64,000 bases of DNA from assembly GCA_017519045.1 (NCBI GenBank), contig JAFWTC010000022.1, positions 1-64,000 of the forward strand. The letters run 5' to 3'. Shown piece by piece: positions 140 to 63,594 of this stretch. Made by a program: the position numbers and the translations under genes. The DNA is from Candidatus Methanomethylophilaceae archaeon (lineage in GTDB: Archaea > Thermoplasmatota > Thermoplasmata > Methanomassiliicoccales > Methanomethylophilaceae). Within the stretch, counting starts at the first letter, position 1. Each line of letters starts with the position of its first letter. The notes below the pieces were generated by a model. It did no database searches. It was not told the DNA's origin and saw only the letters and a list, made by a program, of their open reading frames with translations.

Positions 140-466
140 TCGGCTGTCGTCATCGGCCTGATAGTACTCGTCCAACGTGTTTTGCTCCTGGTCTCCGTCC
201 AGCACGGACTTGATTCTCTTCAAGAGGAACGCGACCTCCTTCCCCTTGTCCGTGAGCATGTATGTCGTCGCAGGGTGGGGCTTCTCGACTTCCAAGACGC
301 TCAGCAGTCCCGCATCCGCCAGCATCGACGCCCTCTTTTTGATCTTGTCGTATCCGCTGCTGACGCGGAGGAGCTCTTTGGAATGCACCTCCTTCTTGTC
401 GAGGACCAGCAGCATTATCCCGGCCAGGTCGCTCTCGCAGAACAGCCACTTGTAGTCCGTCGGCAT
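140..466 (-). CDS. winged-helix transcriptional regulator (second gene of pair)
   Basis: A 108-residue protein starting at ATG 466 behind a GGAGGGG ribosome-binding site. Residues about 10-85 have the winged-helix pattern: helices, then a wing with TTYMLTDKGKEVAFLL as in MarR/PadR-like archaeal regulators, followed by an acidic tail. It is probably a DNA-binding repressor co-transcribed with its paralog at 466-807; the two align along their length. The first in-frame CGA is at 140-142. The conventional stop (TAG) is at 92-94, inside the tRNA-Gln gene, and that longer reading would cross the tRNA promoter. Ligand and targets are unknown; the GTAC-centred dyads at 838-902 are candidate operators. 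Confidence 0.75.
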
Positions 467-807
467 CGTTCCCCTCCGGACACCAGGGCCCTGACGGTCT
501 CTTCCAGGTCGTCATTGTCGATGTCGAAGGTGCCTTCGACGCACCTCTCCACCACGGTCTCCAGCGCCGCTATGAACTTTCCCCGTTCGGTCAGGACGTA
601 GCTGAACGACAGGCGCGGGGATTCAGTGTGATCCTTGATTACGAGCCCCATCTCCGACATGCGGTCGAGAGCCTCCTTCCTGGTGGTGAAGTTCCTGACC
701 ACATCTTCCAGGTCGGCGAGATTGCAATCCCCCTTTTCCAGAAGGGCGACTAAAAGGCTCTATCCGTTCCTGTCCAGAGCGGGCTTCGATTGGGCGTCCC
801 TCATGCC
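466..807 (-). CDS. winged-helix regulator with in-frame TAG codon
   Basis: Reading from ATG 807 gives a 113-codon winged-helix protein, a paralog of the downstream gene, but codon 16 (760-762) is TAG. It falls in the first helix: DRNG, then TAG, then SLLVALLEKG, aligned with DLAGIMLLVL in the paralog. No ATG, GTG or TTG lies between the TAG and residue 36, so a downstream start would delete the first helices. In a pyrrolysine-using archaeon the TAG could be read through; otherwise this is a broken gene. The 3' end reads GAACGATGCC: a CGA overlapping the ATG of the next gene, where a TGATG stop-start overlap would be expected. The conventional stop would be at 415-417. Confidence 0.6.
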
Positions 808-3937: not shown

Positions 3938-5863
3938 TTGTCCCAGAGAAACGTCGCTAACGGAAAGGTCCCCGCCGCATGGTGCGACTCCTGCGGCACC
4001 ATTCTTCTCGGAGACCGTTGCTCCGTCTGCGGCTCGTCCGGAAGGGAGTTCGAGATCAACAGCCCCGGAGACGTCAGGCCGTGCATGGGGGACAGCGTAG
4101 ACATGGTCCTCGGCCTTTTCAGCGAGGCGTTCGGCACGGACTCCCCGCTGAGGGGAAAGGCGATGTTCCTCAACAAGGTCCCCGGCGAGGATCGCGCCGA
4201 CGAGGTCGTCGCATTCGGTGCGGTCATAGCCGTCGTCAGGTTCGACCTCAGGCTGGACCGCATGGTCCTTGACCTCAGGCAGGCGGGCGCGGAGCTCTTC
4301 TCGGAGGAGGCCGTCAAGGGGGTGGTGCGCTTCGCAGGGATGTCCGGACACCTGAAAGGGAAGGCCATCCCGGGGCAGAACGTCACCGAGTGCATCGGGG
4401 AGTTCCGGGAGGGCGCCCCGCTGATACTCAAGAAGGGGTCCAAGATAGGGGCCGGGGTCGCGCTGGCATCCTCCGAGGGAATCAGGGATGCGGAGAAGGC
4501 CGTGAGGATCCGCGACATAGCCGTGCCTGAATGGACATTCGAATCCAAAGACGCGGACTTGTCCGATTTCGTGAGGTGCAACAGGGACCACGTCCGCCGC
4601 CTCGCCCGCCGTGGGGTCAGGGAGATAAAGGAGTTCATGAAGGGCTCCTGCGGAGGCCTCCCCGTCACGGTCTCATTCTCGGGCGGGAAGGACTCCCTCG
4701 CGGCCTACGGGCTCGCCCGCGAGGCGGTCGGAGACCTGGACCTGATGTATCTGGACACGGGGCTCGAGTTCCCCGAGACCGTCGGGTACGTCCGCCGCTT
4801 CGTCGAGAAGGAGGGCAGGAGGCTCCATGTCGCGTCCGGAGGCGACGGGTTCTGGAGCAACGTGGACGCGTTCGGGCCGCCGGCGAAGGATTTCAGATGG
4901 TGCTGCAAGGTCTGCAAGCTGGGCCCGGTCACGTCGATGATAGAGTCGGATTTCCCGAAGGGCACCGTCACCGTGGAGGGTAACCGCTGGCTGGAGTCCT
5001 ACGCCCGCTCGGGGATAGGCTTCGTCACCAGGAACCCTTTCGTCCCCAACCAGGTCAACTTGAATCCGATACGCTCGTGGCGCGCCGCGGACGTGTGGGC
5101 GTACATCCTCTATTCCGGCCTGGAATACAATCCGCTCTACGACAAGGACTTCGAGAGGATCGGGTGCTATCTGTGCCCCTCGTGCCTGTCCAGCGAGTGG
5201 AGGAACACCGGGAGGATACATCCCGAGCTGTATTCCCGTTGGGAGGATTACCTGAAGGATTACGCGAGGAGGTCCGGCCTCTCGGACGATTACGTCCGCA
5301 TGGGGTTCTGGAGGTGGAAGGTCCTTCCGCCCAAGATGGTCCAGCTGGCCGGGGACATGAACGTCAAGGCGGTTCCGGAATCGGGTTCCGGACCCTCGAT
5401 GGACGTCTTGAAAGGTGCCTCCCCATGCGCCGCCGGAGGGTACTCCGTCGAGGCGGTCGTCCACGTCAGGAGGAGCAGGGACTTCTCATACGTCGAGGAC
5501 GCGCTGCGCACGTTCGGGGACACCAAGTACTCCCCGGACTACGAGATCGCCATGCTCAGGACCCCCATAGGAAGGGCCAAGCTGTTCGGAGGAGGGCAGG
5601 TGTCCGTGACCGCCCCGGACGCGGGGAAGGCCAGGGAGGTCTTCTCGATGGCGGTCAAGGCGCTGGTCAGGGTGCAGATGTGCACCGAGTGCGGGATTTG
5701 CGCTAAGAGCTGTCGCAGGCGCGCCATCAGGATATCCGGCGGGATGAGGGTAGACCCCGATAGGTGCACCGCATGCGGCCGCTGCGAGGAGTCCTGCATG
5801 GTAATGCATTATTACGACAAGCTCATGGGCGGGACCTCGGGCGGTAAGGGTAAAATACGGCGA
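3938..5863 (+). CDS. PUA / PAPS-reductase-family / ferredoxin protein
   Basis: A 641-residue protein. In order: an N-terminal zinc ribbon (WCDSCGTIL...CSVCGSS, residues about 16-38), a PUA-like domain (about 110-190, ending ILKKGSKIGAGVALA), a PAPS-reductase/ATP-PPase domain with PP-loop SFSGGKDS (about 246) and several Cys motifs, and a two-cluster ferredoxin domain (CTECGICAKSC, CTACGRCEESC; about 585-625). Homologs occur in many methanogens; an RNA- or sulfur-related redox role is inferred, not shown. Start is TTG 3938, since no in-frame ATG precedes the zinc ribbon. The frame reaches two CGA codons in tandem at 5861-5866 and then, without a conventional stop, the membrane protein starting at ATG 5879. 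I read the first CGA as the stop. Confidence 0.8.
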
Positions 5864-7040: not shown

Positions 7041-7514
7041 TCGCCTGTACTCGCTGAATACGAGCGCGGCCAGGCAGCATCCGTAATGGTCCATGGGGAT
7101 GGACAGCTCCTCGGTCAGGAACCGGGTCTCCTCGAACTCGGTCCTCCTCACGCGGGCCATCTCCGCCATCTTCCATCCCAGGATCTCCTTGAGGGACTCC
7201 GCCGAGCCGTGTATGTGGCCCTCGGCGACGTATCCTCCCTTCCCGTCCTTGCGGTACGCGTAGGCGATCCCGGCGGATATCGTCTCCCCCTCGCATCCGC
7301 GCATCTGGGCGAGGACGCAGTGGGTGACGGCGCCCATGGGCATCTTCTTCATCTCGGTCATCTCGGCGCCCTCCGGTATCACCGAGGACACCGACACCAG
7401 GTTCTGCTCGCCTATGCCGGCTTTGATGAGCGCTATGTCGAAGGCGTTGAGGTCGGAGACCTCGCTCACCGCGGAACTGCTGGTGATGAAGAATCTAGAG
7501 GGCACGAGCTCCAT
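7041..7514 (-). CDS. pdaD: pyruvoyl-dependent arginine decarboxylase
   Basis: A 157-residue PdaD-family proenzyme. It cleaves itself at a Ser-Ser pair (SVSS/VIPEGAE; residues 43-44) to form the pyruvoyl group that decarboxylates arginine to agmatine for polyamine synthesis. The SSSAVSE N-terminus, DLNAFD and the GCCLAALVF C-terminal strand are typical. The family normally ends within a few residues of that strand, and the first in-frame CGA (7041-7043) comes right after SEYR, 4 bases before the ATG of the zinc-ribbon gene. Conventional reading runs to 6555, about 160 residues of antisense-like sequence. Confidence 0.85.
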
Positions 7515-10665: not shown

Positions 10666-11466
10666 ATGAAGATAGCCGCGAAGGTGTCCCTGGAGGTGAA
10701 CGGCACGGCCGTCACCGCCCGCCAGCTCGAGGCCCTCCTTGCCGTCCAGGAGTGCGGCAGCCAGTCCGAGGCCGCCAGGCGGCTGGGCATCTCCGTGCCG
10801 GTCCTCCACAGGTACGTGGCCTCGGCGGAGGCCGCCGCAGGGACCGACCTCCTCAAGACGACCCCCTCGGGTTCCGTCCTGACGCCGGCGGGCCGGGAGC
10901 TGGCCGAGTACGCCCGCGCCATGTCCTACAGGTGCAGGGACGTCCGCGGGTTCACCGTCTGCTGCAGCCCGGTCATGGAGGACCTGATGCATTTCGCGGT
11001 ATCGTCGGCCAAGCTCACGAAGGCCTCCGTGGTCGTCTCCGACGACGAGAACAGCATATCCATGATGCTGGAGGGCCGTGCGGATTTCGCCCTCATCGAC
11101 GATCCCCTGTACCTTTTCGACCTGGAGGGCTTCGAGATGCAGGAGATAGGGTACATGGGGATGGTCCTCGTGGACAACGGGCCATCCTTCATCCGGTACA
11201 AGTACGGGGCGCAGAGGGTCGCGTTCATGTATCTTGATTCTTTAGACAGGGAGTATACCGTGGATGCCGAGACCCCCTCGGTCCAGGAGCTGCTGTCGTC
11301 CGGGAAGAGCTTCTTCGTGGACGAGTCGGTCCTGACCAGGCGGAACCTGCGCATCAAGAGCGCGGTGGACCCCAAGATGCTCCGCCATGCCGTCACGGCC
11401 ATCTACCGCAAGGAGACCCGCAACGTGTCCAGGCTGATGGTGGCCCTGGTCTCCAGGAATTTCCGA
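10666..11466 (+). CDS. LysR-type transcriptional regulator
   Basis: A 266-residue regulator starting at ATG 10666. An N-terminal helix-turn-helix (residues about 15-70, [35 protein letters not shown]) is followed by a periplasmic-binding-protein-like sensor domain. It resembles archaeal LysR/ModE-like regulators; the ligand may be an oxyanion but this is not shown. In-frame CGA at 11464-11466 (after SRNF) precedes five more codons and a TAA at 11482-11484, so under the CGA-stop reading the TAA would be a backup. A short AT-rich region then separates it from hdrC. Confidence 0.8.
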
Positions 11467-18014: not shown

Positions 18015-18119
18015 GCCGGGGTGGCTCAGCCTGGTGGAGCGTCGGACTCATAGGGTTCTGGTCAATAGACCTCTTCCAGGGAAATCCGAAGGTCATGGGT
18101 TCGAACCCCATTCCCGGCA
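18015..18119 (+). tRNA. tRNA with CAT anticodon (Met type), with intron
   Basis: Acceptor GCCGGG pairs with CCCGGC; the T loop is GTTCGAACC; discriminator A is followed by an encoded CCA (18120-18122). The anticodon is CAT, with an intron of about 31 bases (about 18053-18083) at the canonical 37/38 position. The sequence is unlike archaeal initiator tRNA, so it is elongator Met or the Ile-AUA isoacceptor. The convergent MFS gene read conventionally ends inside this tRNA at 18062. Confidence 0.88.
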
Positions 18120-20356: not shown

Positions 20357-20457
20357 TTAAAAATGCCTAGAGGAGATGCTCCAATCGGATCCTCCCGGGT
20401 TCCTCAACCCGGACGCTTTCCTCCATCCTGACGGAGATGAATGACCTCTGCGATTCT

Positions 20458-20466
20458 GTTTATAGC
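20458..20466 (+). promoter_or_regulatory. TATA box of ArsA-type ATPase cluster
   Basis: GTTTATAGC about 25 bases before ATG 20488, consistent with a leaderless transcript. Confidence 0.45.
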
Positions 20467-20487
20467 CAGAACGCGGTTCACGTCCCG

Positions 20488-21654
20488 ATGAGGCTCATCA
20501 TATACACGGGAAAGGGGGGCGTGGGGAAGACGTCGGCCTCCGCGGCCACCGCATACAGGCTGTCCAGGCTCGGATACCGTACCATACTGGTGAGCGCGGA
20601 CTCGGCCCATTCCCTGGGGGATTCCCTGGGCGTCGATCTGGGCAAGTCCATCACGAATGTGGCCGAGAACTTCGACGCCCTCGAGATCGACATAATACAC
20701 GAGATGTACTCACGCTGGAACGACATACAGCAGTACGTCTCCGCCTTCATGCTGTCCCAGGGGATGGGCGACATATCCGCGGAGGAGATGGCGATCTTCC
20801 CGGGGATGGAGATGATCTCCGCCCTGTTCTACCTGAACACCTTCAGCAAGTCGGGAGAGTACGACGTCGTGGTCCTGGACACGGCTCCGACGGGGGAGAC
20901 GCTCAGGCTTCTGAGCTTCCCGGACGTGTCCAACTGGTATTTGGACAGGATGTTCTCCATGGTCAGGAAGATGATAGGCGTGGCCCGCGCCACCGTCGGA
21001 AGGGTGATGGACATGCCTCTGCCGTCCAAGCAGGTCATGGACTCCTTGGAGGACATCAAGAGGAACATGAGGGATGTGAAGGCCATCCTGGAGGACTCCG
21101 AGAAGACCACGGTGAGGCTCGTCCTGAATCCCGAGCACATGGTCATTAAGGAGACCATGCGCGCCTACACCTACCTATGCCTGTACAACAAGAACGTCGA
21201 GGCCCTGGTGGTCAACAGGATGGTCCCGCCAGAGGCGGACGACGGATTCCTCGCCGAGAAGCTGAAGGAGCAGGAGGCCCATATGGAGGAGATCCACAAC
21301 GTGTTCGACCCGCTTACCATGAAGCGCTGCTACATGATGAGGACGGAGCTCAGGGGCCTCGACAAGCTCGACCAGATGGCCGAGATGCTCTTCGGCGACG
21401 AGGACCCGGCCACGGTATACGCCTCCGAGAGCCCCATGTCGTTCAGGACGGTGGACGGGGTGGACGAGCTGGTGATGAAGATGCCGTTCGTCGACAAGAG
21501 CGAGGTGGAGCTGTTCAGGATAGACTCCTCCATGATCATGGTGCACGTGGGGAGCCAGAAGCGCAGCATACAGCTGCCGGACACGCTCACGCGCGCGGAG
21601 ATCGCCGGGGCATCCTTCAAGGACGGAAACCTGGTTATAAAGTTCAAGAGGCGA
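20488..21654 (+). CDS. ArsA/Get3-family ATPase
   Basis: A 388-residue ArsA/TRC40-like ATPase. The deviant P-loop GKGGVGKT (residues about 8-15), the Switch I DSAHSLGD and the Switch II DTAPTGETLRLLSFP are intact. The C-terminal part ends in a small beta domain (SIQLPDTL...GNLVIKFKR) as in ArsA proteins with a C-terminal Hsp20-like module. Start ATG 20488 follows TATA GTTTATAG by about 25 bases; ATG 20437 would put coding sequence over that promoter. The first in-frame CGA, right after KFKR at 21652-21654, is one base before the next gene's ATG. Conventional stop would be at 21831, out-of-frame over the next gene. Confidence 0.85.
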
Positions 21655-21655
21655 G

Positions 21656-22108
21656 ATGATGGAACACAGCGAAGAGGAGATAGCGAGGTTCGTGTCCGAG
21701 AACAGGGACCTGATAGAGATGATGATGGACAGGGCCGAGAAGAGGCGCGAGGACGACTACGAGCGTCTACGCGACAGGCTGGACGGAGACGTCCTCAGGG
21801 CCAGGAACAGGATGGACAGGGACGTCCATAGAGCTGAGGACACGTTCCGCGATGTGTTCGAGGCGTTCGCCGACCCGGAGGTCCAGAGGCATTTCGTCAC
21901 CATGGGGATGAATTTTGTCATGGGGATGTCGGCGCTGATGCAGAGGATGCCGGGCCCGGACTATCTGAAGAGCACGGCGTCCGATTTCGAGTCGGGGTGG
22001 AGGAAGGCCGCATGCGGCGTCAACCGCGACTGCGAGGTCAGGAAGCGCAAGATCGACATCGATGGCGGCGCCGTGAAGGTGCCCATCGAAGACTCGGAGA
22101 GCGAGCGA
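21656..22108 (+). CDS. helical charged protein, unknown
   Basis: A 150-residue protein that I do not recognise. It begins with an acidic and basic helical region rich in Glu, Arg and Asp (residues about 1-75) with coiled-coil character, then a Met-rich hydrophobic patch (FVTMGMNFVMGMSALMQRM), and a C-terminal part with two cysteines. It starts 1 base after the CGA that ends the ArsA-type ATPase, so it may be a partner of that ATPase; Met-rich patches are found in proteins binding hydrophobic helices (inference). In-frame CGA (22106-22108) overlaps the ATG of the AMMECR1 gene as CGATG; conventional stop is 22136-22138. Confidence 0.7.
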
Positions 22109-22701
22109 TGGACATCGAGCAAGGCAAGGCGGCCGTGAGGTTCGCCCGCTCCGCGGTGGAGGCGGAGGTCTCCCGCTCGGAGGTCGGAAAGGCTCCGGAA
22201 GGTCCTGGATTCTCCGATCCCCGGGGGGCGTTCGTCACCATGAACACCTATCCTGGTGGAAGCCTGAGGGGGTGCATCGGATACCCCTATCCGGTCATGC
22301 CGCTGGCCAAGGCCATAGAGGAGTCCGCGAGGTCCGCCTGCCACGACCCCCGCTTCCCGGACCTGTCGCCGGAGGAGACCGACGGGATAGTGGTGGAGGT
22401 GACGGTGCTTACCGTCCCCGAGGCCATTCCCCCCATGCCTCCTGACGTGATCGCCGAGTCGATCCGCATCGGGCGCGACGGTCTCATGCTGGAGCTGGCG
22501 GGATGCCGCGGGCTCTTCCTTCCTCAGGTCCCCGTGGAGCAGGGGTGGGACGTCCAGGAGTACCTGGGCTTCCTGTCCATGAAGGCAGGCCTTCCGTACG
22601 GGGCCTGGAGGGACCCCCGCGCCAGGCTGTCCAGGTTCGAGGGTGAAATCTTCTCCGAGACGTCCCCGCGCGGCGACGTCGTGAGGAGGGATGCGGAGTG
22701 A
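22108..22701 (+). CDS. AMMECR1-domain protein
   Basis: A 197-residue AMMECR1-family protein with the signature LRGCIG (residues about 53-58) and LPQVPVEQGWDVQEYLGFL near the C-terminus. The family is conserved in archaea and eukaryotes; its biochemical role is unsettled, though association with radical-SAM AmmeMemoRadiSam proteins suggests a modification role. The start overlaps the preceding CGA, and its TGA overlaps the GTG of dihydroorotase (GTGA). Confidence 0.9.
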   Translation: MDIEQGKAAVRFARSAVEAEVSRSEVGKAPEGPGFSDPRGAFVTMNTYPGGSLRGCIGYPYPVMPLAKAIEESARSACHDPRFPDLSPEETDGIVVEVTVLTVPEAIPPMPPDVIAESIRIGRDGLMLELAGCRGLFLPQVPVEQGWDVQEYLGFLSMKAGLPYGAWRDPRARLSRFEGEIFSETSPRGDVVRRDAE

Positions 22702-23963
22702 CCTTCGACCTGGTGGTCCGGGGGAGCGTCTACGTCGACGGCCGGGTCTCCTACCGCGAGATAGGCGTGGAGGACGGGAGGATAGCCTACGTGGGCAGGA
22801 GCGCCGGCCGCGCTGACAGGCGCATCGACGTCGGCCCCGGGAAGACCGTCCTTCCAGGATTCACGGACCCCCACGTGCATTTCAGGGACCCCGGGATGAC
22901 GCACAAGGAGGACTTCTCCACCGGGACCCTGTCCGCAGCCTACGCCGGGGTGACGTGCATCCTGGACATGCCGAACACGCTCCCCCCAGTCGTCGACCTC
23001 GGCACGTTCAAGGCCAAGAAGGACGCGGTCCGCGGAAGGGCCCACGTCGATTACGGGCTGTTCGCGGCCGTGACCGCCGGATGCGATCCGTCGCCTTTGG
23101 CTCCGCTGGTACCAGGATTCAAGCTGTTCATGGGATCCACGACGGGAGAAATACTCCTGAACGACGACGCCGACCTGGTTCCGGCCGTCACGCGCGTCCT
23201 GGCCACCGGCAAGCGCATGAGCGTCCACGCCGAGGACGACTCCATGATCTCGAAGTCCGACGCCGGATGCACCCGCGACCATCTGCGCAACCGCCCTTCC
23301 TCCGCGGAGCTGAGCGCGATAGGGAGGCTGGCCTCCAGGTTCTCCGGGTCCAGGATCAACATCTGCCACATCACCACGGCGGAGGGCCTGGATGCGGCAA
23401 GGTCCGCCGGATTCACGACCGAGGTCACGCTCCATCACCTGCTGTTCGACGTCGACCGCTGTCCCGGCGCCGAGTACAAGGTGAACCCGCCCATCAGGGA
23501 GCCGTCGGCCCGCGAGGCCCTCTATCGCAGGTTCACGGCCGGCGACATAGCGATGTTCGGCTCCGACCACGCCCCCCACACCGTCGAGGAGAAGGCCCGC
23601 GGGTTCAAGGAGGCTCCCGGAGGCATCCCCGGCGTCGAGACCACCGTCCCGATCGCGATGGAGATGGTCCGCAGGGGCGAGATCCCCCTGTCCATGGCCG
23701 TGAGGATGGGCGCGGAGGCCCCTGCCGAGGCGTTCTCGATGAGGAAGGGAAGGATAGCGGAAGGGTATGACGCGGACCTGTGCGTATTCGACCTCCGCTC
23801 GTCCTCGGAGATAGACGTCGGAAGGCTCCACAGCAGATGCGGGCACTCCCCTTACGGCGGGTTCAGGGCGGTATTCCCCGATACGGTAATAATCAGGGGA
23901 GAGGTTCAGGTCGACGGCGGCGAGTTCTGCGGAGAGCGCCTAGGATGTGACGTTTGTGGCCGA
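22698..23963 (+). CDS. pyrC: dihydroorotase
   Basis: A 421-residue class I dihydroorotase that interconverts carbamoyl-aspartate and dihydroorotate in pyrimidine synthesis. Metal-site motifs DPHVHFRDPGMTHKE (residues about 56-70), the ICHITTAE histidine and GSDHAPH are present. In class I enzymes a lysine is often the carbamylated bridge. Start GTG 22698 overlaps the AMMECR1 TGA. The first in-frame CGA is at 23961-23963, close to the family's usual C-terminus, overlapping the next gene (GTG 23947) by 17 bases. Conventional reading would extend 150 residues over that gene to 24416. Confidence 0.88.
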
Positions 23964-27026: not shown

Positions 27027-30000
27027 TCATTCCTCGTATTCCCTCTTGTACAATTTGCGGTGACGGAGCACCATGTACGTCGCCATGACGACGGAGGCTG
27101 CGATGAACGCGATCGCCAAAGCGAGGGCGTTCTTCTCCACCCATCCCTCCTCGGGGACCGCTCCGGTCTGATCCTTGGTCACGTCCAGCCTGTTGAGGCT
27201 CCTCTCGACGACCTTCCCGTCCTTGTTCGTCACTGAGAGGCCGATCTTCTCCAACTGTATCTCCAGGGCGTCCCCCCTCTTGAGGTCCACAGACGCCTTC
27301 CTGACGTCGATCTCCGCATCGCCGTAGGAGTCCAGGACCGTGGTCCCGTCCTTGCCGTACAACGTCATTCCGCTTGACGACATGAGCAGCCTGGCTTCTG
27401 CGCTGAAATCGTCGTTCTTGATCGCCGGGACTATAGCGAGTATGCCCTGCTCCTTTGGATCATACCCGTCAACGTGCAGGGCTCCGTTCGTCAGGGAGAC
27501 GACGGAATCCTCGCTGACCATTTTGAATTCGATGTCGTAGTATTCGAAAGACATCGTCCAGGGCATGAACAGGTTCACGGAGAATCCCACGTCCTTTCCG
27601 AAATCGGCCTCGAATCCTCCTGAGACCTCGTCGGTGCTGCACGTGAGACGGACGATCCCGTTCTCGCCGTTCACGACGGTGTTGTCCGAGAGCACCAGGG
27701 AATGTCCGATGGATGTGACCTTGCCGACGAGAGATGTGACGTCATTGTACTCGGAGTATCCGATGGAGAGGACGACGTTCACGTATTTCGGAGAGGTTTC
27801 CGACATCTTCTCGTTGGTAAGCGAGATGAACTCCTTCTCTTTGCCGTATTCCAAGCGGATGCTCTCGTTGGACAGGGTGACCTCCGCATGCGTCTCCTCG
27901 GAGAAATCCACCCCGTAAAGGAACGCGTCTATGCATTCCGTAAGGGACCCTTGGGAGACCATGACGATCTCGGAGGATCCGGAGCGGATGCTGACCGTTC
28001 CCTTCTTCAGGTCCATGGACGTGGCCATGTCCTCGAACGTCAGAGACATCACGTTCTGCCCGACCGCGCTCTTGCTCAAGGCGGCGCCCAGCCCGGAGAC
28101 GAGGATTTCGTATTCCCCGTCCGCATCGATGTCTAGGGAGGCGTGCGAGGCGCCGATGTCCATGCTGTCGCCGCAGTCCAGAAGCTGCTGGACGGTCAGG
28201 GTCCCTTCCCTTTCGATGATGTCGTAGGCGGCTCCGATGTCGAATCCGCCCACATCGGACGAAAGGTCGTCCAGGACTGCCTTCAGTTGGGACGACTTGC
28301 TCGTGGAATACGGGATGCTCAGGAACCTTCCGGAGGATTCTCCGTCGATATGGGCCTCCACGACGGTAGTGTACCCGGAGGCGTCCAGCCTTCCGCTGAC
28401 AGTGGTCTGGTCGTTGTAAGAGGAATGGATCATCCTCAGGTCGAGACGGACCGGGGATCCGGCAGGATCGTCTTTAGACGTGAACGACAGGGAGTATGAT
28501 CCGCCGTCCTTGTCCACCCTTAGGTCGAGCCATCCGCTCTTCAGGGACAGATCTGCGTCGGCGTCCTTCTCGAACTTCATGCCGTCGAGGACCAGGTCCA
28601 CCAGCTCCGAGAACTCGACGTCCGAGGACAGCGACAATTCGGTGGATGCGGCCCGGATGTCTACCGCCATATCCTCGAGGGGGACGGAGGCCTTGGCATT
28701 CTCCATGACGAAGGCGATGACCGCCAGCCCGTCCACGTTCCTGGAGAGGCCGGCGCTGGCATCGTCCAACACGACATCGGATTCGCCGTCCCCGTCCCAT
28801 TCCACTTCCGCATGTCTCGTAGAGAGCTCTATCGAATCGCAATGGTCGAGTACCTGCTGGATGCTTAGCCCTCCATCATCGTAGACCTGCAGGAGGTACG
28901 ATATCTCCAGTCCCTTGACGTCAAGGGCGGGGCCGTTTGCCATGAGGCGGAGGTCGTCCCCTTTCAGCGGCAGTTTCCCGCGATGCAGGCCGCGGCTCTC
29001 GAATTCCAATACGTATCCTTCGGCGTCGGCATCCAAGTCCAGAAGGGTCTTCGAAGCGGCCTCGACGTTCTGCAGGGATGCCTTCAAGGTCATAACGGAT
29101 GTGCCCGGGCCGCCGTCCTCCGAAAGTGACAGGGAAACGGATTCGCTGGAATAGGACATGACGGCCCATGTCAGGAAAGCCTCGGCATCCATACGGACGT
29201 CGGATTCGAACTCCAGTCCGTTCTCGATGATGTCCGCGATTTCGGAGAACGGCGCATCGGATGCGAAGTTCGCCTTCACGGAGGAGGATTCCAGCTCCAT
29301 TGCGCCGTCCTCCACGTCAGCGGACAGGGACAGGCGGCTCGATTCGAATTGAAACGAGCTTTCCGGAACTGTTCCGATTCTCAGCACCGGCCTCTCGGCG
29401 TTCAGGGTGAGATTTTTATCTCCATCAGTATGGACGTCCAGGCCCTTCGCGGCGAACTCCAAGGACTTGCAGCAGTCCAGCATCTCGGGGGCGATCGTCC
29501 CCTTGTCGTCGTAGATGGAGGCTATGGCGCCCAAGTCTGCCTCCGATACGTTCAGGGACGGGCCGGAAGCGGTCAGGTCGAGGCTGCCGTCAGCGCTCGT
29601 GGCCTTGGCGGTCATTACATGTTCCTCGGCCTTCACGTTCAAATCGAGAAGCGTTCTGGAGGATGCCTTGTAATACGACAAGGATGCGGCGACGGTCACA
29701 AGCGATTCTTGATCCGCTTCCGAGACCGATATCGACGCGGTCTCCCCGGAGTAGGTAGCTTCAAGATCATCCAAGCTCGCCTCCATTGACATCTTCGCAT
29801 CATATCCGAGCTTGAGCCCGTCCTTGAAGACGGCCAGAAGGTCGCTGAACGGCGCTCCTGAAGTCAGATGGGCGGACGACGCCCCCGCGCTGACATCCAG
29901 CACCCCGTCGTCGAAGGGGGCATGGGCCGTAAGCGAGCCGCATTTCGCCGAGGCGGTGTACCTGCCGGAAGAATCTGTCTTTACCTCAGCAGATGCGAAC

Positions 30001-39066: not shown

Positions 39067-40431
39067 TCGGTTTTTGAAGCTGTGTATGGGCGCGGGGATC
39101 CTTCCGCCGCGGTTCACGAAATCGGCGCAGCCGTACTTGTTGACGGGCATTATGCGGGCCTCTCCGAGAAGCCCTCCGAACTCCGCCACCTCTCCGACGC
39201 CCTTCCCAATCACGGGGATGACCCTGACGGCGGTCGTCTTCTGGTTGACCATGCCTATGGCCATCTCGTCCGCGATGATTCCGGATATCGTGGATGCGGG
39301 GGTGTCGCCGGGGATCGCTATCATGTCGAGCCCCACGGAGCATACGCACGTCATGGCCTCCAGCTTCTCCAGGGTGAGCGCGCCGATCGCGGCCGCCTCG
39401 GCCATGGAGCTGTCCTCGCTCACGGGGATGAAGGCGCCGCTCAGTCCTCCGACGTAGGATGAGGCCATCACGCCGCCCTTCTTGACCTGGTCGTTGAGTA
39501 TGGCCAAGGCGGCGGTGGTTCCGGGCGCCCCCGCGTACTCCATCCCCATCTCGTGGATGATGTCCGCTATGCTGTCGCCCACGGCGGGCGTCGGCGCCAG
39601 GGAGAGGTCCACGATTCCGAACGGGACCCCCAGCCTCCTCGAGGCCTCCTTCGCATACAGCTGGCCTATCCTCGTTATCTTGAACGCCGTCTTCTTTATC
39701 GTCTCGCAGAGGACCTCGAAGCCTTCTCCCCTCACCTGCGAGAGCGCGTTCTTCACCACTCCGGGTCCGCTCACGCCCACGTTCAGGACGCAGTCCGCTT
39801 CGGTGACCCCGTTGAACGCGCCGGCCATGAAGGGATTGTCGTCGGCGGGATTGCAGAACACCACGAGCTTGGCGCATCCCAGGGAGTCCCTGTCCTTGGT
39901 GCGCTCCGCGGTCTTCAGAACCGTCTCGCCCATGATCCTCACGGCGTCCATGTTGATCCCGGCCTTGGTGGAGCCGAGGCTCACGGAGGAGCAGACCCTC
40001 TCGGTGCGGGCCAGCGCCTCCGGTATGGAGGCAATGAGGTTCTCGTCGGCGGGCGTCATCCCCTTCTGGACCAGTGCGGAGAAGCCTCCGATGAAGTTGA
40101 CGCCGACGTCCTTCGCGGCCGCGTCCAGGGCCTCCGCGATCCTGACGAACCCTTCCGGGCCCTTGCAGGCGGAGCCGCCTATCAGAGCCGCAGGGGTGAT
40201 GGATATCCTCTTGTTGATCACGGGCACCCCGAACTCCAGCCCGATGTCGTCGCCGACGGACACCAGGTCCTTGGCGCGGTCGGTGATCTTCGAATAGACG
40301 TTGTCGCAGAGCGAGTCCAGGTCGGGGGAGATGCAGTCCAGCAGGCTGATCCCCATGGTTATGGTCCTGACGTCGAGGTTCTCGTGCAGGATCATGTCGT
40401 TGGTCTCAAGGACCTCTTTCAGCTCGATCAT
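39067..40431 (-). CDS. UPF0210 (PFL/DUF711) family protein
   Basis: A 454-residue UPF0210 protein, a pyruvate-formate-lyase-like fold of unknown reaction often encoded beside an ACT-domain protein (UPF0237), as here. It ends in [13 protein letters not shown] and the family commonly ends at the equivalent PAPxxSLKN. The next codon is CGA (39067-39069), followed at once by a terminator. Conventional reading adds 16 Pro-rich residues coded by the terminator itself, to TGA 39019. Start ATG 40431, 10 bases after the ACT gene. No CGA occurs inside 454 codons. Confidence 0.88.
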
Positions 40432-40441
40432 GAGGCCACCC

Positions 40442-40714
40442 TCGGATCCTGTACATCATGTCGAAGATGTCCTCGCGCTGGGCCTTGATTACGCATCCGA
40501 TCTCGCGCCCGACCGCGTCCAGCCCCTCCGACATGGATGCGAACGTGCCCGAGTAGCCGTCCATGTCGACTATCATCATCATGTTGATGAACTCCTGGAC
40601 CGTGGTCTGCTTGATGTCCAGTATGTTTATGCCGTTCTCGGCGAAATAGGTGCAGACCGCGGCTATCAGCCCCACCCTGTCCTTACCCGTTAAGGTCACT
40701 ATCACTCTGTTCAT
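40442..40714 (-). CDS. ACT-domain protein (UPF0237)
   Basis: A 90-residue single ACT domain of the UPF0237 family: [31 protein letters not shown] and a C-terminus DIFDMMYRI. Family members usually end at this MxRI, 90-91 residues long. The next codon is CGA (40442-40444). Conventional reading would add 12 residues over the start of the UPF0210 gene to TGA 40406-40408. ACT domains bind small ligands, usually amino acids; it may regulate the operon or its UPF0210 partner. Confidence 0.85.
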
Positions 40715-40718
40715 TAGA

Positions 40719-42281
40719 TCGCCTTCCAGATCCCGACTGTCTCATGAGGGCGTACTCCAGCGAGTCCTTCAGGGCCGCCAGGCTCGCCCCGATTATGTTG
40801 ACGGAGACCCCGACCGTGGTCCATTCCTCCCTTCCGTCGGTGGACTTTATCAGCACGCGGACGCCCGTGCTGGTGCCGGAGCCCTCGTCCAGCACCCTGA
40901 CTTTGTAATCAGTCAGCCTGACGTCCTCGAGCTCGGGGAAGAAGCATCCCAGGCCTTTGCGCAGGGCGTTGTCCAGCGCGTTCACGGGTCCGTTCCCGTC
41001 CGCAGCGGTGTGCGCCGTCCTGCCGTTCCTGTCGGTGACCTTGATGCTGGCCTCCGATTCGGTCCCCTCGTTGCGGTCGTCGGTGTAGACCCTGAACCCG
41101 GTCACGTCGAACATCGGCTCCATCTCGCCCCTGAGCCTCTTGACCAGGAGCTCGAAGCTCGCATCCGCGCCCTCGAACTGGTAGCCGCGGAACTCCAGGT
41201 CCTTCACGGCGCTTACGATCGCCTCCTTGTCGTCGCCCTGTTCCAAGCCGAGGCGCCCCAGCTTCTCGGTGATGCTGGCCCTTCCGGCCATGTCTGACAC
41301 CAGGATCCTGCGGACGTTCCCTACGGACGCCGGGTCTACGTGCTCATACGTGCGGGGGTCCTTCGATAGCGCGGACACGTGCACCCCTCCCTTGTGGGCG
41401 AAGGCGCGACCGCCTACGTACGGCATGCCCGGGTTGGGGACCATGTTGGCCACCTCCCCCACGTACCTGGACAGGTCCGTGACCGTGCTCGGGTCGATGC
41501 CCCCCAGGTCCATCCCCATCTTGAGGGACAGGTTGGGGACCAGGGCGCACAGGTTGGCGTTCCCGCACCTCTCCCCGATGCCGTTGACGGTCCCCTGGAC
41601 CATGGAGCATCCTGCCTCCACGGCGGCCAGGGAGCAGGCCGTGGCCAGGTCCGAATCGTTGTGGCAGTGGATTCCCAGAGGGATCCCGAGTTCTTCCGAC
41701 GCCTCTCCGACGGCCCTGCGGACCATGTCGGGCAGGCTGCCGCCGTTGGTGTCGCACAGCACCGCCCATTCCGCTCCAGCCTCCTCCGCGGCTTGTACAG
41801 CTTCGATGGCATATCCGGGGTTCGAGGCGAACCCGTCGAAGAAGTGCTCCGCGTCGAACAGGACCCTCTTCCCCGCATCCTTCAGGAACGAGACGCTGTC
41901 CCTTATCAGGCGGACGTTGTCATCGAGCCCTATCTCCAAGGCCTCCCTGACATGGAAGTCCCACGTCTTTCCGAATATGCAGCACCATTCCGATCCGCAT
42001 CCGGCCAGCGCCTTGAGGCCCGCGTCCTCGTCCGCTGGAACGCCCGGGCGGCAGGTGCTCCCGAAGGCCACCAGCTTCGATCCGGACAGGCGCAGCTTCG
42101 ATGCGCGGGAGAAGAACTCGTCGTCCTTCGGGTTGGATCCCGGCCAGCCCCCTTCGATGAAGTCGGCTCCGAAGGCGTCCAGCCTCCTGGCTATGTCGAT
42201 CTTGTCGCCGCATGAGAATGAGACGCCCTCGGTCTGGGCGCCGTCCCTGAGCGTGGTGTCGTAGACGTAGACTCTCTTCAT
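40719..42281 (-). CDS. cimA: (R)-citramalate synthase / 2-isopropylmalate synthase-like
   Basis: A 520-residue CimA-type enzyme. The HMGL-like TIM barrel has TTLRDGAQTEGVSF (residues about 9-22) and GIHCHNDSDLA; the C-terminal domain is LeuA-allosteric-like. It condenses pyruvate with acetyl-CoA to citramalate for isoleucine in many methanogens. Start ATG 42281, 1 base after the CGA of homoserine dehydrogenase. In-frame CGA at 40719-40721 lies 4 bases before the ACT gene's ATG. Conventional stop is 40683-40685, 12 codons into the next gene. Confidence 0.85.
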
Positions 42282-42282
42282 C

Positions 42283-43284
42283 TCGTCCCTTCGTCCTTCT
42301 CTCGAGTATCGCCATCAGGTCGCTGAGGATGGCCGACGCCGTCTCCGCGCGTCCCGCGCCCCTTCCGGACACGGTGACGGGACCGGCGAGGTCCGTGACG
42401 ATCTGGGCGGTGTTCAAGGTGCCGGATATGCTGAGCGGGTGCCCCTTGGGGATCAGCCTGGGCCCGACCTCGAGCCTGCTGTCGCTCACCTCGCCTATGA
42501 GCCTTATGACCATGTTGCGGGAGGCTGCCATTGACACGGCCTCCTCGGTTATCGACGTTATGCCGGTGATCTTGATGTCATTGAAGGTGACGTTCCTGCC
42601 GAACACCGCGTTGGCTAGTATGGCGACCTTGCATGCGCTGTCGTAGCCCTCGATGTCGTTGGTCGGGTCGGTCTCGGCGTATCCCAGCTGCTGGGCCTCC
42701 TTCAGCGCCTGGTCGAAGGGCTGGCCCTTGTCCATCTTGCTGAGGATGTAGTTGCAGGTTCCGTTGAATATCCCGCGTATGGAGACTATCTTCTCCCCCA
42801 TGAGGTTCTCGGCGCACAGGTTCAGTATGGGCATGGCGCCTCCCACCGAGCCTTCAAACCTTAGCATGCACCCGTTCTTCTGGGCGAGTTCCGTAAGCTC
42901 GGCGTACTTCAGCGCCAAGGGCCCCTTGTTCACGGTTATGACGTCCTTGCCGCGCTTCAAGGCGGAGATGATGTTGCCCAGCCCCGCGCCGCCGGTCTTG
43001 ACGTCGGTCGGGCTGACCTCCACGAGCACGTCGTAGTCGGCCTTCGCCAGGACTTCGGCCGGATCGGTGTAGCCCTTGTCGCCGACGGTGCGCTTCTCCT
43101 TCTTCCTGGCCACGAGGGCGAGGGGGTCCAGGCCCGCGGGGTCGCACACGTACGTGCGGGAGTCCATCGCGCCGGTTATCGACACGTCCTGCCCGAACCT
43201 GTCCTTGATCATCTTCCCTTTGGACGCCAGAACCTCGGCGAACCCCTGGCCGACCGTGCCGAATCCGCATATGAAGACCTTCAT
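42283..43284 (-). CDS. hom: homoserine dehydrogenase
   Basis: A 333-residue homoserine dehydrogenase (aspartate semialdehyde to homoserine). NAD(P)-binding GFGTVGQG (residues about 7-14), catalytic region KGPLALKYAEL, and GIFNGTCNYIL and DIEGYDSACK motifs are clear. Single-domain type without ACT; the ACT regulator is the next gene upstream, 1 base away. The CGA at 42283-42285 is directly followed by G and the ATG of cimA (CGAGATG). Conventional reading continues 121 codons over cimA to 41920. Confidence 0.92.
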
Positions 43285-47096: not shown

Positions 47097-47492
47097 ATGA
47101 CCGGGGCCATGGGCATAACGAGCGTGTCTCTTCCGGAGGAGAGCCTCAAGGATCTGGCGAGGATAGAGGAGGCGTACGGGCTCCGCGGGAGATCCGAGGC
47201 GGTCCGCGCATCCATTTCCGCGGCCATCGCGGAGATAAAGGAGGCTGAGGACCTCCAGGGCGCCGTGGAAGGCGTCCTGGTGATAGTCCGCAGGAACCAT
47301 GACGACCCCTGGATGATCCGTCTCCAGGCTCGCTATGAACAGGCTATAAAGACGCAGATGCATTCCCATCTGAGGGATCGCAAGTGCCTCGAGGTAATGG
47401 TCCTGTCATGCGACGCTTCGGATTTGTCTTCCATGATGCGCGACATAAGGTCCGAAGGCAAGGCCGATTATGTCAAGTTCGTCCGTAGCCGA
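47097..47492 (+). CDS. nikR: nickel-responsive regulator NikR
   Basis: A 131-residue NikR. An N-terminal ribbon-helix-helix (ITSVSLPEESLKDLARIEEAYGLRGRSEAVRASI) is followed by an ACT-like metal domain with the nickel ligands His in RRNHDDP and His-Ser-His...Cys in MHSHLRDRKCLEV. It represses nickel uptake when nickel is abundant. The first in-frame CGA is 47490-47492, after YVKFVRS; the conventional stop at 47541 adds 16 residues. Starts 47097 and 47109 are both possible. Confidence 0.88.
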
Positions 47493-55476: not shown

Positions 55477-55770
55477 TCGGAATTTCTTCTGCGAAAGCGA
55501 GGTCCAGGTCCTCTTGTCGGTCAGCACGAGTACGCCTCCGCGTACGTCCACGACCACGGACCCCGTCGCCTCTGCTATGGCCTCGGCCACGGTCTTCGCC
55601 CCGTCCTCGGAATTGGACAGGACCTTGACCTTGATCACCCTGTTCTTCTTGAGCTGGGTCGAGATTTCCTCGAACACCCCCTGGTCCAGCCCGTCCTTTC
55701 CCACGTGGACGGTGGGGCTGAGGTCCACGGCCCTCCTCATGAGTTCCTTTCTCGCGTCCTTCTCAGTCAT
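55477..55770 (-). CDS. YhbY/CRM-domain RNA-binding protein
   Basis: A 97-residue YhbY family protein. DLSPTVHVGKDGLDQGVFEEI, then the basic LKKNRVIKVKVL, is the CRM (CRS1-YhbY) RNA-binding fold. In bacteria YhbY binds the pre-50S ribosome. Start ATG 55770. CGA at 55477-55479 is two codons before TGA 55471-55473. The first base of its ATG overlaps the TGA of the Rpr2 gene (55767). Confidence 0.82.
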
Positions 55771-59642: not shown

Positions 59643-60118
59643 TCATGATACTAGAGATAGATGGGGGATATTCCGGAATAAAGTTCTCCGCATGCCATTT
59701 CATACCCAGGCACGAGAAGTGCTCCAGGCTGCACGGGCATTCCTACATAGTCCGTCTCCGCCTGGACGGCGACATCGGCGAGGACGGGATGATAATGGAT
59801 TTCGTCATACTGAAGAGGAAGCTCAGGGAGATGATCGAGGAGTTCGACCACAGGACCCTGATCCCGTCCAAGTCCAAGGAGGTCTCGGTCTCGGTGACTG
59901 ATTCGTCCGTGGAGGTCGTATCAGGATGCAAGAGGTACGTCTTCCCCAGGGAGGACGTCGCCCTCCTGGACGTTCCCACGACCACCGCGGAGGAGATGTG
60001 CAGGATGATGACCCTCCGCATGGCGTCTGAGATCGACTTCCCGCCCAACGTCAGGTCCGTGTCGGTCGGCCTCGACGAGGAGAGGGGCCAGACCGCATGG
60101 TACACGGAGGCCCTCCGA
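59639..60118 (+). CDS. queD: 6-carboxytetrahydropterin synthase
   Basis: A 159-residue QueD/6-PTPS family protein. Zinc ligands are the His residues in SACHFIPRHEKCSRLHGHSY, and ETTAEEMCRMM-like sequence with a catalytic glutamate follows. In archaea the enzyme makes 6-carboxytetrahydropterin for the preQ0 base of archaeosine. Starts at ATG 59639 (overlapping the mtxX TGA) or ATG 59645. It ends CTC CGA TGA; the CGA at 60116-60118 overlaps the queC ATG as CGATG, so either end is nearly the same. Confidence 0.88.
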
Positions 60119-60789
60119 TGAAGGCGGTGGTCCTCCTTTCCGGAGGGCTGGACTCCACCACCACTTTGGCCCAGGCGCTCGCGGACGGGTGCGAGGTCGT
60201 CGCCTTGAGCTTCAGGTACGGCCAGAGGCACACGAAGGAGCTGTCCTCTGCCGAGAACGTCTGCAGGCATTACGGGGTCCGCCACATAATCGTCGATCTG
60301 GACCTCAGCTCCTTCCGTTCGGCGCTCACCCGCCCCGACATAGACGTTCCCATGGACCGCGAGGGGAAGCTGGACGAGAGCATCCCCATCACCTACGTCC
60401 CTGCCAGGAACATAATCTTCCTCAGCGTGGCCGCGGGGCTCTGCGAGTCCGTGGACGCCGACAGGATATACATAGGCGCGAACGCCGTGGATTACTCCGG
60501 ATACCCGGATTGCCGTCCCGAGTTCTTCGACGCGTACGAGAGGATGATAGCCGTGGGCACCAAGGCCGGGGTCGAGGGCCGTCCGATCAAGGTGATGACT
60601 CCGATAATGCATGATTCCAAGGCCGACATAGTGCGCCGCGGCAAGGAGTTGGGAGCGCCCTTGCATCTCACGTGGTCCTGCTACAACGGCGGGGAGAAGG
60701 CGTGCGGCCACTGTGACTCGTGCAGGCTGAGGCTCAAGGGCTTCGAAGAGGCCGGATACAAGGACGAGATAGAGTATGAGGATCTGCGA
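60118..60789 (+). CDS. queC: 7-cyano-7-deazaguanine synthase
   Basis: A 223-residue QueC making preQ0 from 7-carboxy-7-deazaguanine. The PP-loop LSGGLDSTTTL (residues about 7-17) and a C-terminal zinc site (CYNGGEKACGHCDSCRLR) are clear. The first in-frame CGA at 60787-60789, after IEYEDL, gives the usual family length and overlaps the queE start by 14 bases. Conventional reading runs on to 61017 over queE. Confidence 0.92.
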
Positions 60790-61402
60790 GTTGTTCCTTT
60801 CCATACAGGGCGAAGGCCTCATGATGGGGGTCCCGACGTTCTTCATAAGGTCCGTCGGATGCAACCTGTCCTGTTCCTGGTGCGACACCGGGTATTCCAT
60901 GTCCGGCGGGGAGGAGATGTCCGTGGAGGAGATCATGCGCCGGGTCGGCGACTGCGCCCACGTGTGCGTCACCGGAGGCGAGCCCATGCTCCAGCCAGAC
61001 ATAACGGATCTGCTTGATGCGCTCGTCCGTGCGGGCAAGCACACGGTGCTGGAGACCAACGGGGCGACCGATCTGTCCAAGGTTCCCGACGACCGCCTGG
61101 TCATGATAAGCATGGACATCAAGTGCCCCTCGTCGGGTATGACCGACAGGATGCTGCTTTCCAATCTCGCGTATCTTTCCGGCAAGGACCAGCTGAAGTT
61201 CGTCATCGCCGACGACCGCGACTTCGACTTCGCGGTCGGATTCCTGAGGGACAATGAAGTGAAGGCCAATGTCGTCTTCACCCCGGTCGGAGGCGTGGAC
61301 AGGCTGGAGTGGCTCGTTTCGCGCGTCCTGGAGTCCAAGGCCGACGTACGCGTCCTGCCTCAGCTCCATAAGGTGATATGGGGCGACCGCAGAGCGGTGC
61401 GA
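60776..61402 (+). CDS. queE: 7-carboxy-7-deazaguanine synthase
   Basis: A 208-residue QueE, a radical-SAM enzyme. The cluster motif CNLSCSWCDTG (CxxxCxxC type with this family's variant spacing; residues about 29-39) and CVTGGEPMLQ are present, with RVLPQLHKVIWG near the C-terminus. It converts 6-carboxytetrahydropterin to CDG. The first in-frame CGA is at 61400-61402, after GDRRAV, 6 bases from the convergent gene's end. Conventional reading runs to 61765. Confidence 0.9.
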
Positions 61403-61408
61403 CCCCGT

Positions 61409-61759
61409 TCAAGCGTTCGTCTCGAAGGACCTTCTGCGTTCGAGCCTTCTCATGAAGTCCTTGACGCAGTCCTCCACGGTGCCGTCCTCGTCAGGCGACA
61501 CCCGGATTCCCGCCTTCTCAAGGATTTCGGCTCCGTGCATCCCGATCCCTCCGGTGAGGACCGCCTCGACGTTCCCGAGGGAGACTATGGCTTCAGCCAC
61601 AGCCACTCCCGCGCCGGAAAGCGAATCCTTGAACTCGTTCACTATGACGCGGTAGTCCAGGGTGTCCGAGTCGACCAGCAGGAAGAAGGGGGCGTGGCCG
61701 AAGTCGTCGGCCACATAGGAGTCCAGGGACTCCCCTTCGGATACCGCCAGGATCATCAT
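61409..61759 (-). CDS. NifX/NafY-type iron-molybdenum cofactor domain protein
   Basis: A 116-residue protein of the dinitrogenase Fe-Mo cofactor biosynthesis (NifX/NifB C-terminal) fold: MILAVSEGESLDSYVADDFGHAPFFLLVD, then GAGVAVAEAIVSLGNVEAVLTGGIGMHG. Such small proteins carry or chaperone metal clusters, often with a Mrp/NBP35 protein, as here. ATG 61759 (or 61756). Its ATG overlaps the CGA end of the Mrp gene. It ends with TGA. Confidence 0.82.
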   Translation of the reverse strand: MMILAVSEGESLDSYVADDFGHAPFFLLVDSDTLDYRVIVNEFKDSLSGAGVAVAEAIVSLGNVEAVLTGGIGMHGAEILEKAGIRVSPDEDGTVEDCVKDFMRRLERRRSFETNA

Positions 61760-62583
61760 CGGTGATCGACCGTCTTGATGATCTTCTCGGCGATGTCCTT
61801 GAACGCCTTGGCGGACGCCGAGTCGGGGCGGTCGAGCACTATCGGGACCCCCCTGTCCCCGCAGTCCACGACTCCGGGCTCTATGGGGACGCGTCCGAGG
61901 AACTGGACGTTCATCTCCTTGGCGGTGGCCTCTCCGCCTCCGCTCTTGAATATGTCGGTGATCTCGCCGCAGTGGGGGCATACGAAGCCGCTCATGTTCT
62001 CGATGATTCCGATGATGGGGATGTGGGCCTCCGCTCCGAACACCAGGGACTTCCTGCTGTCCAGGAGGGCCACGTCCTGAGGCGTGGTGACGATGACCAT
62101 CCCGTCGGCCTTGGGGATGAGCTGCACGATGGAGAGGGCCTCGTCCCCGGTTCCAGGAGGCATGTCGATCACCAGGTAGTCCAGCTCGCCCCAGTTCACG
62201 TCCTCTATGAACTGCTTGATGGCGCTCATCTTCACGGGTCCGCGCCACATTACAGGGGTGTCCTTGCTCTGGAGGAGGAACGCCATGGACATGAGCTTCA
62301 GGGAAGGGGGGACGTCCACGGGAATCAGCTTCTCGTTCTCCACCATGAGGCCCTGGTCCTCGACTCCGAACATCTTGGGGATGTTGGGCCCGGTGATGTC
62401 TATGTCCATCACGCCGGTCTTGTATCCCTTCATGGAGAGTGAGAGCGCGAGGTTCGAGGATACGGTGCTCTTCCCGACGCCTCCTTTTCCGCTCATGACG
62501 ATGACGACGTGCTTGATGCCCTTCAGCGTGTCCTGGATCTTGGTCTCTTCCTGGATGCTCTCTTCGGTGAGTAACGGTGACAT
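61759..62583 (-). CDS. Mrp/NBP35-type Fe-S cluster carrier ATPase
   Basis: A 274-residue P-loop ATPase. Deviant Walker A GKGGVGKST (residues about 34-42), DIDITGPNIPKMFG and the C-terminal CPHC motif (VCPHCGE) that holds a bridging 4Fe-4S cluster. It transfers clusters to apo-proteins. Start ATG 62583. Reading ends GATCACCGATGATG: CGA (61759-61761), overlapping the NifX ATG, then TGA (61756-61758), so the two ends are one codon apart. Confidence 0.92.
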
Positions 62584-62742: not shown

Positions 62743-63594
62743 ATGGCTGACACTGTAAAGGACTACATGGTTCCGAGGGAGAAGGTCCGTTTCGTGACTC
62801 CGGATATGACTGTGGAGGACGTCAGGCAGGCGCTGATGAACTCCAGCTTCCACGGGTTCCCGATAGTCGAGAACGACTATCTCCTGGGATTCGTCACGGC
62901 CAAGGACCTCCTACGGTGCATCGACAGGCCCAACGAGAGGATCAGGAACGTGATCAGGTCCGGGTCGTTCTGCGCCACGCCTTCGATGTCGATCAGCGAC
63001 GCCACCCGCATCCTCTTCCGCTACGGGATCAGGAACCTCCCGGTGGTCGACGAGAACACGAAGAAGGTCGTCGGCATCATCTCCAACATAGACGTCGTCA
63101 GGTCCCACATCGAGAAGACCCGCCAGAGCAAGGTGGAGTCCGTCAAGGCCTTCCTGGAGAAGTACAACGACGTGAAGATAAGGGTCATGCCGGGGATAGT
63201 CAAGGTTCCGATTGAGGAGGTGATACCCACTCAGAAGGAGGTCTACCTCGACGAGCTCGCCGGGAGGCAGTACGAGCTGAAGAGGGGCCTAAACGAGCCT
63301 CTGATCATGATAAAGAGGCGCAACGGGTACCTTCTCGTGGACGGCCACCACCGCGTCATGGCGGCCAAGGAGCTGGGCTACAAGGAGCTCAGGGCGACGG
63401 TACTGGTCCCGAACGACCTTGACGTGAAGTTGGGCCTGGAGAAGACCGCCGAGCGCTGGGGCCTGAAGTCGCTGGACGACGTTGTCATAAAGAACGATGC
63501 GAAGCACCCGTTCATGGAGGCCGCCACGATGCTCCTGCCCAGCGAGCAGGCGGACGGGATAAACCAGAGGCTGATGAAGAGCGAGAACAGCCGA
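62743..63594 (+). CDS. CBS-pair and ParB-like nuclease domain protein
   Basis: A 283-residue protein. Residues about 1-125 carry two CBS domains (DYMVPREKVRFVTPDMTVEDVRQAL; ATPSMSISDATRILFRYGIRNLPVVD), which bind adenosyl nucleotides. Residues about 150-215 contain a ParB-like segment with LIMIKRRNGYLLVDGHHRVMAAKELG, as in ParB/sulfiredoxin-fold proteins. Known in methanogens as possible regulators; mode of action uncertain. Start ATG 62743. The first in-frame CGA (63592-63594) follows KSENS; conventional TAG at 63697-63699 adds 34 Arg-rich residues. Confidence 0.82.

Follow-up and report, generated by a model that had tools for sequence, protein, structure and literature searches.

The codon CGA, which encodes arginine elsewhere, most probably serves as a translation stop in a genus-level clade of Methanomassiliicoccales that holds the MAG UBA71, and the CGATG strings at its gene junctions are then one-nucleotide overlaps by which neighbouring genes are coupled. 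A probability of roughly 0.88 is assigned to this reading. A fuller account, in which CGA is the fourth stop codon of a cellular genome, dominant in SIG8, with a loosened aRF1 throttled by the CGA retained in its own gene, is regarded as rather likely. The window, a stretch of 64,000 nucleotides, represents contig C16 of a genome (G000) of 86 contigs, about 1.9 Mb and about 60% GC. Its aRF1 is nearest to aRF1s from MAGs of the Methanomassiliicoccales; the clade includes UBA71, SIG7, SIG8 and RGIG6908. A match to pyrrolysyl-tRNA synthetase (PylS) lies above the curated cut-off. The compared genomes are largely MAGs; the genome sample comprises 902 kb of stretches from G000, in which genes were called with a home-made caller.

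Four junctions in the window read CGATG, and the positions given for them in an earlier note on this DNA were confirmed. They join a winged-helix pair (CGA at 466..468, minus strand; next start at 466), the ArsA-neighbour and AMMECR1 (22106..22108, plus; start at 22108), queD and queC (60116..60118, plus; start at 60118), and Mrp and a NifX-like gene (61759..61761, minus; start at 61759). In all four strings CGA is in the frame of the upstream gene, and the phase is that of a TGATG or ATGA overlap. The standard code makes 4-nt ATGA overlaps of queD/queC and Mrp/NifX (CGA directly followed by TGA); with it the winged-helix pair overlaps by 52 nt, with the upstream ORF continuing 16 codons to a TAA at 415, and the ArsA-neighbour and AMMECR1 overlap by 31 nt. 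The note's proposal that CGATG stands where TGATG would be usual held up, while the ATGA overlap also contained in two of the four had been overlooked. That all four are ordinary ATGA overlaps was considered and rejected, since this holds for only two and a phase-matched null reveals a real excess. When genes were called with four stops, the one-nucleotide stop-start overlaps of the window were exactly these four, all of them CGATG.

Comparison with relatives bears out that CGATG sits where TGATG is expected. At the Mrp/NifX junction TGATG is present in G017, G004, G019 and G016 (as CTGATG); the window has CGATG, as does G001, the relative closest to it. At queD/queC, CTCTGATG is found in G013, G014, G006, G004 and G002, where the window has CTCCGATGA; in G007 the string is CTCCGATG, and the upstream frame continues for 193 nt. 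In relatives the orthologue of the ArsA-neighbour also terminates in a TGA close to the CGA. Because relatives carry TGATG at orthologous junctions, CGA occupies the position of a stop codon, and the CGATG joints would be true one-nucleotide stop-start overlaps if CGA acts as a stop.

The same pattern was followed across the 902 kb sample. Where genes overlap by 5-150 nt in the same phase and the downstream start is ATG, CG precedes that ATG in 9 of 32 cases (28%), compared with 35 of 1558 same-phase ATGs within genes (2.2%), giving a binomial P of ~3e-8. Against all ATG starts of the genome, 11% of which have CG before them, P = 0.006. The earlier note's judgement that chance explains such overlaps poorly is thus upheld, and the comparison of CGATG with TGATG that it proposed, made with CGA called as a stop, returned 19 CGATG and 11 TGATG one-nucleotide overlaps. 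The genus is also represented by a complete genome, G013, in which only 2 such CG-preceded overlaps occur in 400 kb and TGATG is more frequent.

CGA is enriched at gene 3' ends 8.6-fold in G000 (next codon 3.05) and 7.2-fold in G013 (next codon 2.5), and no other codon accumulates there to a comparable degree. A neutral orthologue test was also applied, restricted to genes of relatives that end in a standard stop and lack CGA close to the end, in which the choice of start is irrelevant. At 160 positions where the G013 orthologue stops, G000 has TGA 102 times, CGA 19 times, TAA 4 times and any other codon at most 3 times; at the stops of G006 orthologues, it has TGA 93 times and CGA 13 times. 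The probability of CGA occurring so often at orthologous stop positions in G000 is ~1e-22. The reverse test, in G013 and G006, gave no CGA signal (0-1 CGA; 1 in ~170). When the genes of the 902 kb were called anew with CGA as a stop, the number of overlaps >20 nt dropped to 6 from 49, genes stayed intact, and coverage changed from 0.895 to 0.882. When each of 12 control codons was called as a stop instead, 21-45 such overlaps remained and, except for TTA (875 genes vs 806), each added >100 genes. These results refute chance, base composition or a gene-calling artefact as the source of the pattern: CGATG is indeed a common 5-mer in a genome of 60% GC, and the start choices do come from a home-made caller, but the phase-matched null is far below the observed share, the orthologue test is independent of start choice, and no control codon yielded the same result. 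Under the CGA-stop call, at most 206 of 861 genes end in CGA; from the orthologue test the share is 12-15%.

The four-stop call gives the window 66 genes, of which 26 have CGA as their last codon, among them ArsA, queD, queC, queE and Mrp. In several, CGA falls at the very residue where the orthologue has TGA: 7041..7043 (minus; ..LVFSEYR; run-on 161 codons), 11464..11466 (plus; ..LVSRNF), 23961..23963 (plus; ..CDVCG; run-on 150 codons) and 47490..47492 (plus; ..KFVRS). The same applies, with both G013 and G006, to 39067..39069 (minus; ..HSFKN) and 40442..40444 (minus; ..MMYRI). The CGA of queE (61400..61402, plus; ..IWGDRRAV; run-on 120 codons) aligns with the TGA of G013, and that of a 641-aa ORF (5861..5863, plus; run-on 397 codons) with the TAA of its G013 orthologue. 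In the ArsA gene (20437-21654) CGA lies at 21652..21654 (plus), 2 codons past the end of the ArsA_HSP20 domain, and the run-on would extend 58 codons, across the next gene. Similarly, queC (223 aa) ends in CGA at 60787..60789 (plus), the homology of relatives' QueC ends at residue 222, and the run-on of 75 codons would cross queE. At 55477..55479 (minus), G013 also has CGA at the end position of the gene, with TGA one codon later. Four more ends follow from the four-stop gene call: the second winged-helix gene at 140..142 (minus), with a run-on of 15 codons into the edge of a tRNA-Gln; 40719..40721 and 42283..42285 (both minus), which remove overlaps of 32 nt and 362 nt, respectively; and 63592..63594 (plus), with a run-on of 34 codons.

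Three further features of the window were observed. An in-frame TAG at 760-762 (minus; ..LDRNG-TAG-SLLVALLEKGD..), which follows the start of the upstream winged-helix gene by about 15 codons, is a candidate pyrrolysine codon because the genome has PylS. A 105-nt match to a tRNA model at 18015-18119 (plus), absent from the ARAGORN output, is probably an intron-containing tRNA. The longest ORF by far, of ~2260 aa, lies at 27027-33809 (minus).

The use of CGA differs widely between members of the genus. In SIG8 (locus L386), CGA closes about 7 of 8 orthologous genes near aRF1, exactly where TGA stands in relatives (5 CGA vs 1 TGA under a stricter filter), whereas RGIG6908, Tb.RUG.172 and a few others have CGA ends at lower rates. 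CGA ends are rare in G013 and G006, account for about 12-24% of genes in the genome of the window, and predominate among the genes compared in SIG8. As in known changes from sense to stop, CGA at 3' ends stands exactly at the stops of homologues (19 of 160 in G000, 5 of 7 in SIG8).

The codon is also missing from gene interiors. Many apparent interior CGAs belong to shadow-frame ORFs, which were filtered by third-position divergence; with these removed, a true-frame comparison of G000 with G013 (36,307 codons) leaves one clear interior CGA, in aRF1. Around aRF1, 21 samples of the genus contain 0 CGA in ~85,900 aligned interior codons (~5,090 of them arginine codons), compared with 42 CGA in ~55,100 at 16 sister-genus loci. 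The genomes thus establish, at the level of codon use, that CGA is placed at gene ends and purged from gene interiors, with the aRF1 codon as the one exception. Outside the genus, L336 (SIG6) and L342 (RGIG5541) show no interior CGA in ~4,000 codons. In these two loci the CGA of aRF1 is likewise found only at the arginine codon that holds it in the genus, and the trait there may reflect either an older origin or two origins. In the sister genome L351 (UBA593), CGG makes up most of the arginine codons (133 of 229), in places where AGG is the codon of its relatives.

These distributions leave little room for loss of stops by drift, in which CGA would still encode arginine, TGA would have changed to CGA at many ends, and the proteins would carry tails to the next stop. 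Such a change takes one transition, G000 still has a tRNA-Arg(UCG), and some run-ons measure just 0-5 codons. However, drift would not purge CGA from interiors across the genus, nor replace stops by CGA only and not by TGG, AGA or GGA, which neighbour TGA as well. The run-ons past CGA in G000 average 88 codons (maximum 663), 115 of 206 would overlie the next gene by >20 nt, and SIG8 would need to have lost the stop in nearly all of the compared genes. Drift was dropped on the 3'-end accumulation, the neutral orthologue test and the interior purge, and is scarcely credible.

In the genome of the window, the tRNA-Arg anticodons are TCT, CCT, GCG, CCG and TCG. Its tRNA-Arg(UCG), at C55:11590-11663 on the minus strand (L205), shows an A.A mismatch at 31.39, together with a short variable loop. 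This anticodon-stem pair is broken in all tRNA-Arg(UCG) copies of the genus that were read (A.A or C.A), and the sister-genus stretches matching this tRNA have G39. BLAST and pattern searches, which may overlook a gene split by an intron, found no tRNA-Arg(UCG) in SIG8, SIG9, SIG3, G006, G002, G008, G011, G012 and G015. Because the gene persists in G000, though with the 31.39 mismatch, CGA may be ambiguous there. It could also be argued that CGA is unassigned, with ribosomes stalling and being rescued by a Pelota/ABCE1-type pathway instead of released by aRF1. This would suit the species in which the tRNA was not found and a purge that is genus-wide, even where CGA hardly serves as a stop. Against it, stalling at every seventh gene end, and in SIG8 at nearly every compared gene, would be costly, coupling at the CGATG overlaps requires ordinary termination, and the invariant CGA of aRF1 suggests aRF1 itself as the sensor. 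An unassigned CGA is accordingly unlikely, and termination at CGA by aRF1 is the reading that is retained.

The sole clear interior CGA of G000 corresponds to Arg81 of human eRF1. In 20 named records of the genus and in G000, aRF1 contains exactly one CGA, at this position, and its flanks are invariant wherever covered (T before, CT after). In sister genera any arginine codon is used at the Arg81 equivalent and CGAs are scattered elsewhere. The single exception within the genus is SIG8 (L386), whose aRF1 has CGC at this position and whose aRF1 gene itself ends in ..CGATG. The invariant aRF1 codon and, within the reach of the searches, the tRNA pattern are read directly from the sequences; termination at CGA by aRF1, and control by the factor of its own synthesis through the in-frame CGA, are inferences. 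The frame is unchanged after the CGA of aRF1. Species apparently lacking tRNA-Arg(UCG) keep this codon, and therefore reading it as arginine there needs another tRNA.

Editing of mRNA from CGA to UGA (C-to-U), with termination as at UGA, would leave the same codon-level signature, and CGA does stand exactly at UGA positions. To our knowledge, no such C-to-U editing is known in archaeal mRNA. Editing would, moreover, have to strike every CGA except that of aRF1, and it explains the loss of the tRNA less simply; it is very unlikely.

The equivalent of human Arg68 is Met in the aRF1 of the family. In simulations of eRF1, the substitution Arg68Ala lowered the penalty for C at the first position from ~6 to 1-2 kcal/mol (PMC5681627). 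Met at this position cannot alone explain a trait of the genus, since it is family-wide. The replacement of NIKS by NIRS (K63R) as a cause was weakened, as it occurs only in G000 and Tb.RUG.20, and SIG8 and RGIG6908 are without it.

The best-supported account of these observations is a route of codon capture toward stop. The single release factor of the family, aRF1, would have lost the arginine that rigidifies the NIKS loop (Arg68 of human eRF1, here Met), weakening its rejection of C at the first position. CGA would then have been purged from gene interiors, and its reader, tRNA-Arg(UCG), would have decayed or been lost. Subsequently, the exchange of TGA for CGA at gene ends would have been free, harmless because CGA had been purged inside genes and the tRNA had decayed or disappeared. 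The in-frame CGA of aRF1 must be read through as arginine, and it probably limits synthesis of the factor in a manner like that of RF2.

The likeness to RF2 can be specified. Bacterial RF2 is autoregulated by an in-frame UGA (review PMC5009743). As in RF2, a release-factor gene contains a conserved early in-frame copy of a codon at which the factor terminates or, for aRF1, would terminate, followed by C. RF2 needs a +1 frameshift, whereas the frame of aRF1 is continuous past the CGA, so that read-through with arginine is required; aRF1 may thus be controlled in a manner like that of RF2 without belonging to the same class, because there is no frameshift.

Changes from sense to stop have been reported from organelles. 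AGA and AGG are stops in vertebrate mitochondria. UCA and UCG serve as stops in mitochondria of Sphaeropleales (PMC6821328), and UUA/UUG became stops in Marsupiomonadales mitochondria and UUA/UCA in peDinoflagellate plastids; the plastid case, on record since 2025, is described as the first outside mitochondria (PMC12574857). The present case shares with these a codon gone from interiors and found only at 3' ends. In the organelles the cognate tRNA is also missing or decayed and the release factor altered near its codon-reading site; here tRNA-Arg(UCG) was not found in SIG8, G006 and others but is present with the 31.39 mismatch in G000 and others, and Met at the Arg68 position is family-wide. 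The present case differs in that the genome is a cellular archaeal one of about 1.9 Mb with an eRF1-type factor, and in that the codon is CGA, a first-base change from UGA. Arginine codons have also been reassigned in bacteria, CGA/CGG to Trp or Gln and AGG to Met (Shulgina and Eddy 2021, PMC8629427). There too a rare arginine codon shifts its meaning after near-disappearance, but the codons become amino acids and the CGA/CGG cases occur in low-GC genomes, unlike the ~60% GC found here. The pyrrolysine UAG code of Methanomassiliicoccales (PMC4153887, PMC9499178) belongs to the same order and likewise sets a tRNA against aRF1 at one codon; UAG there passes from stop to sense, the direction opposite to that of CGA.

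In the open-licence literature, no change from sense to stop was found in a cellular genome, nor any change of CGA to stop, and a report outside it is possible; within that literature, the known sense-to-stop changes are confined to tiny organelle genomes. Codetta, the program of Shulgina and Eddy used in a large screen of genetic codes, by its own statement cannot detect such changes (PMC9825746). With CGA as a stop, the annotation of many genes in these gut methanogens would contain spurious C-terminal tails or overlaps. The genus offers a graded series within one clade, from CGA unused through occasional and common to dominant, which makes it possible to test in what order codon capture, tRNA decay and the change of the release factor took place.
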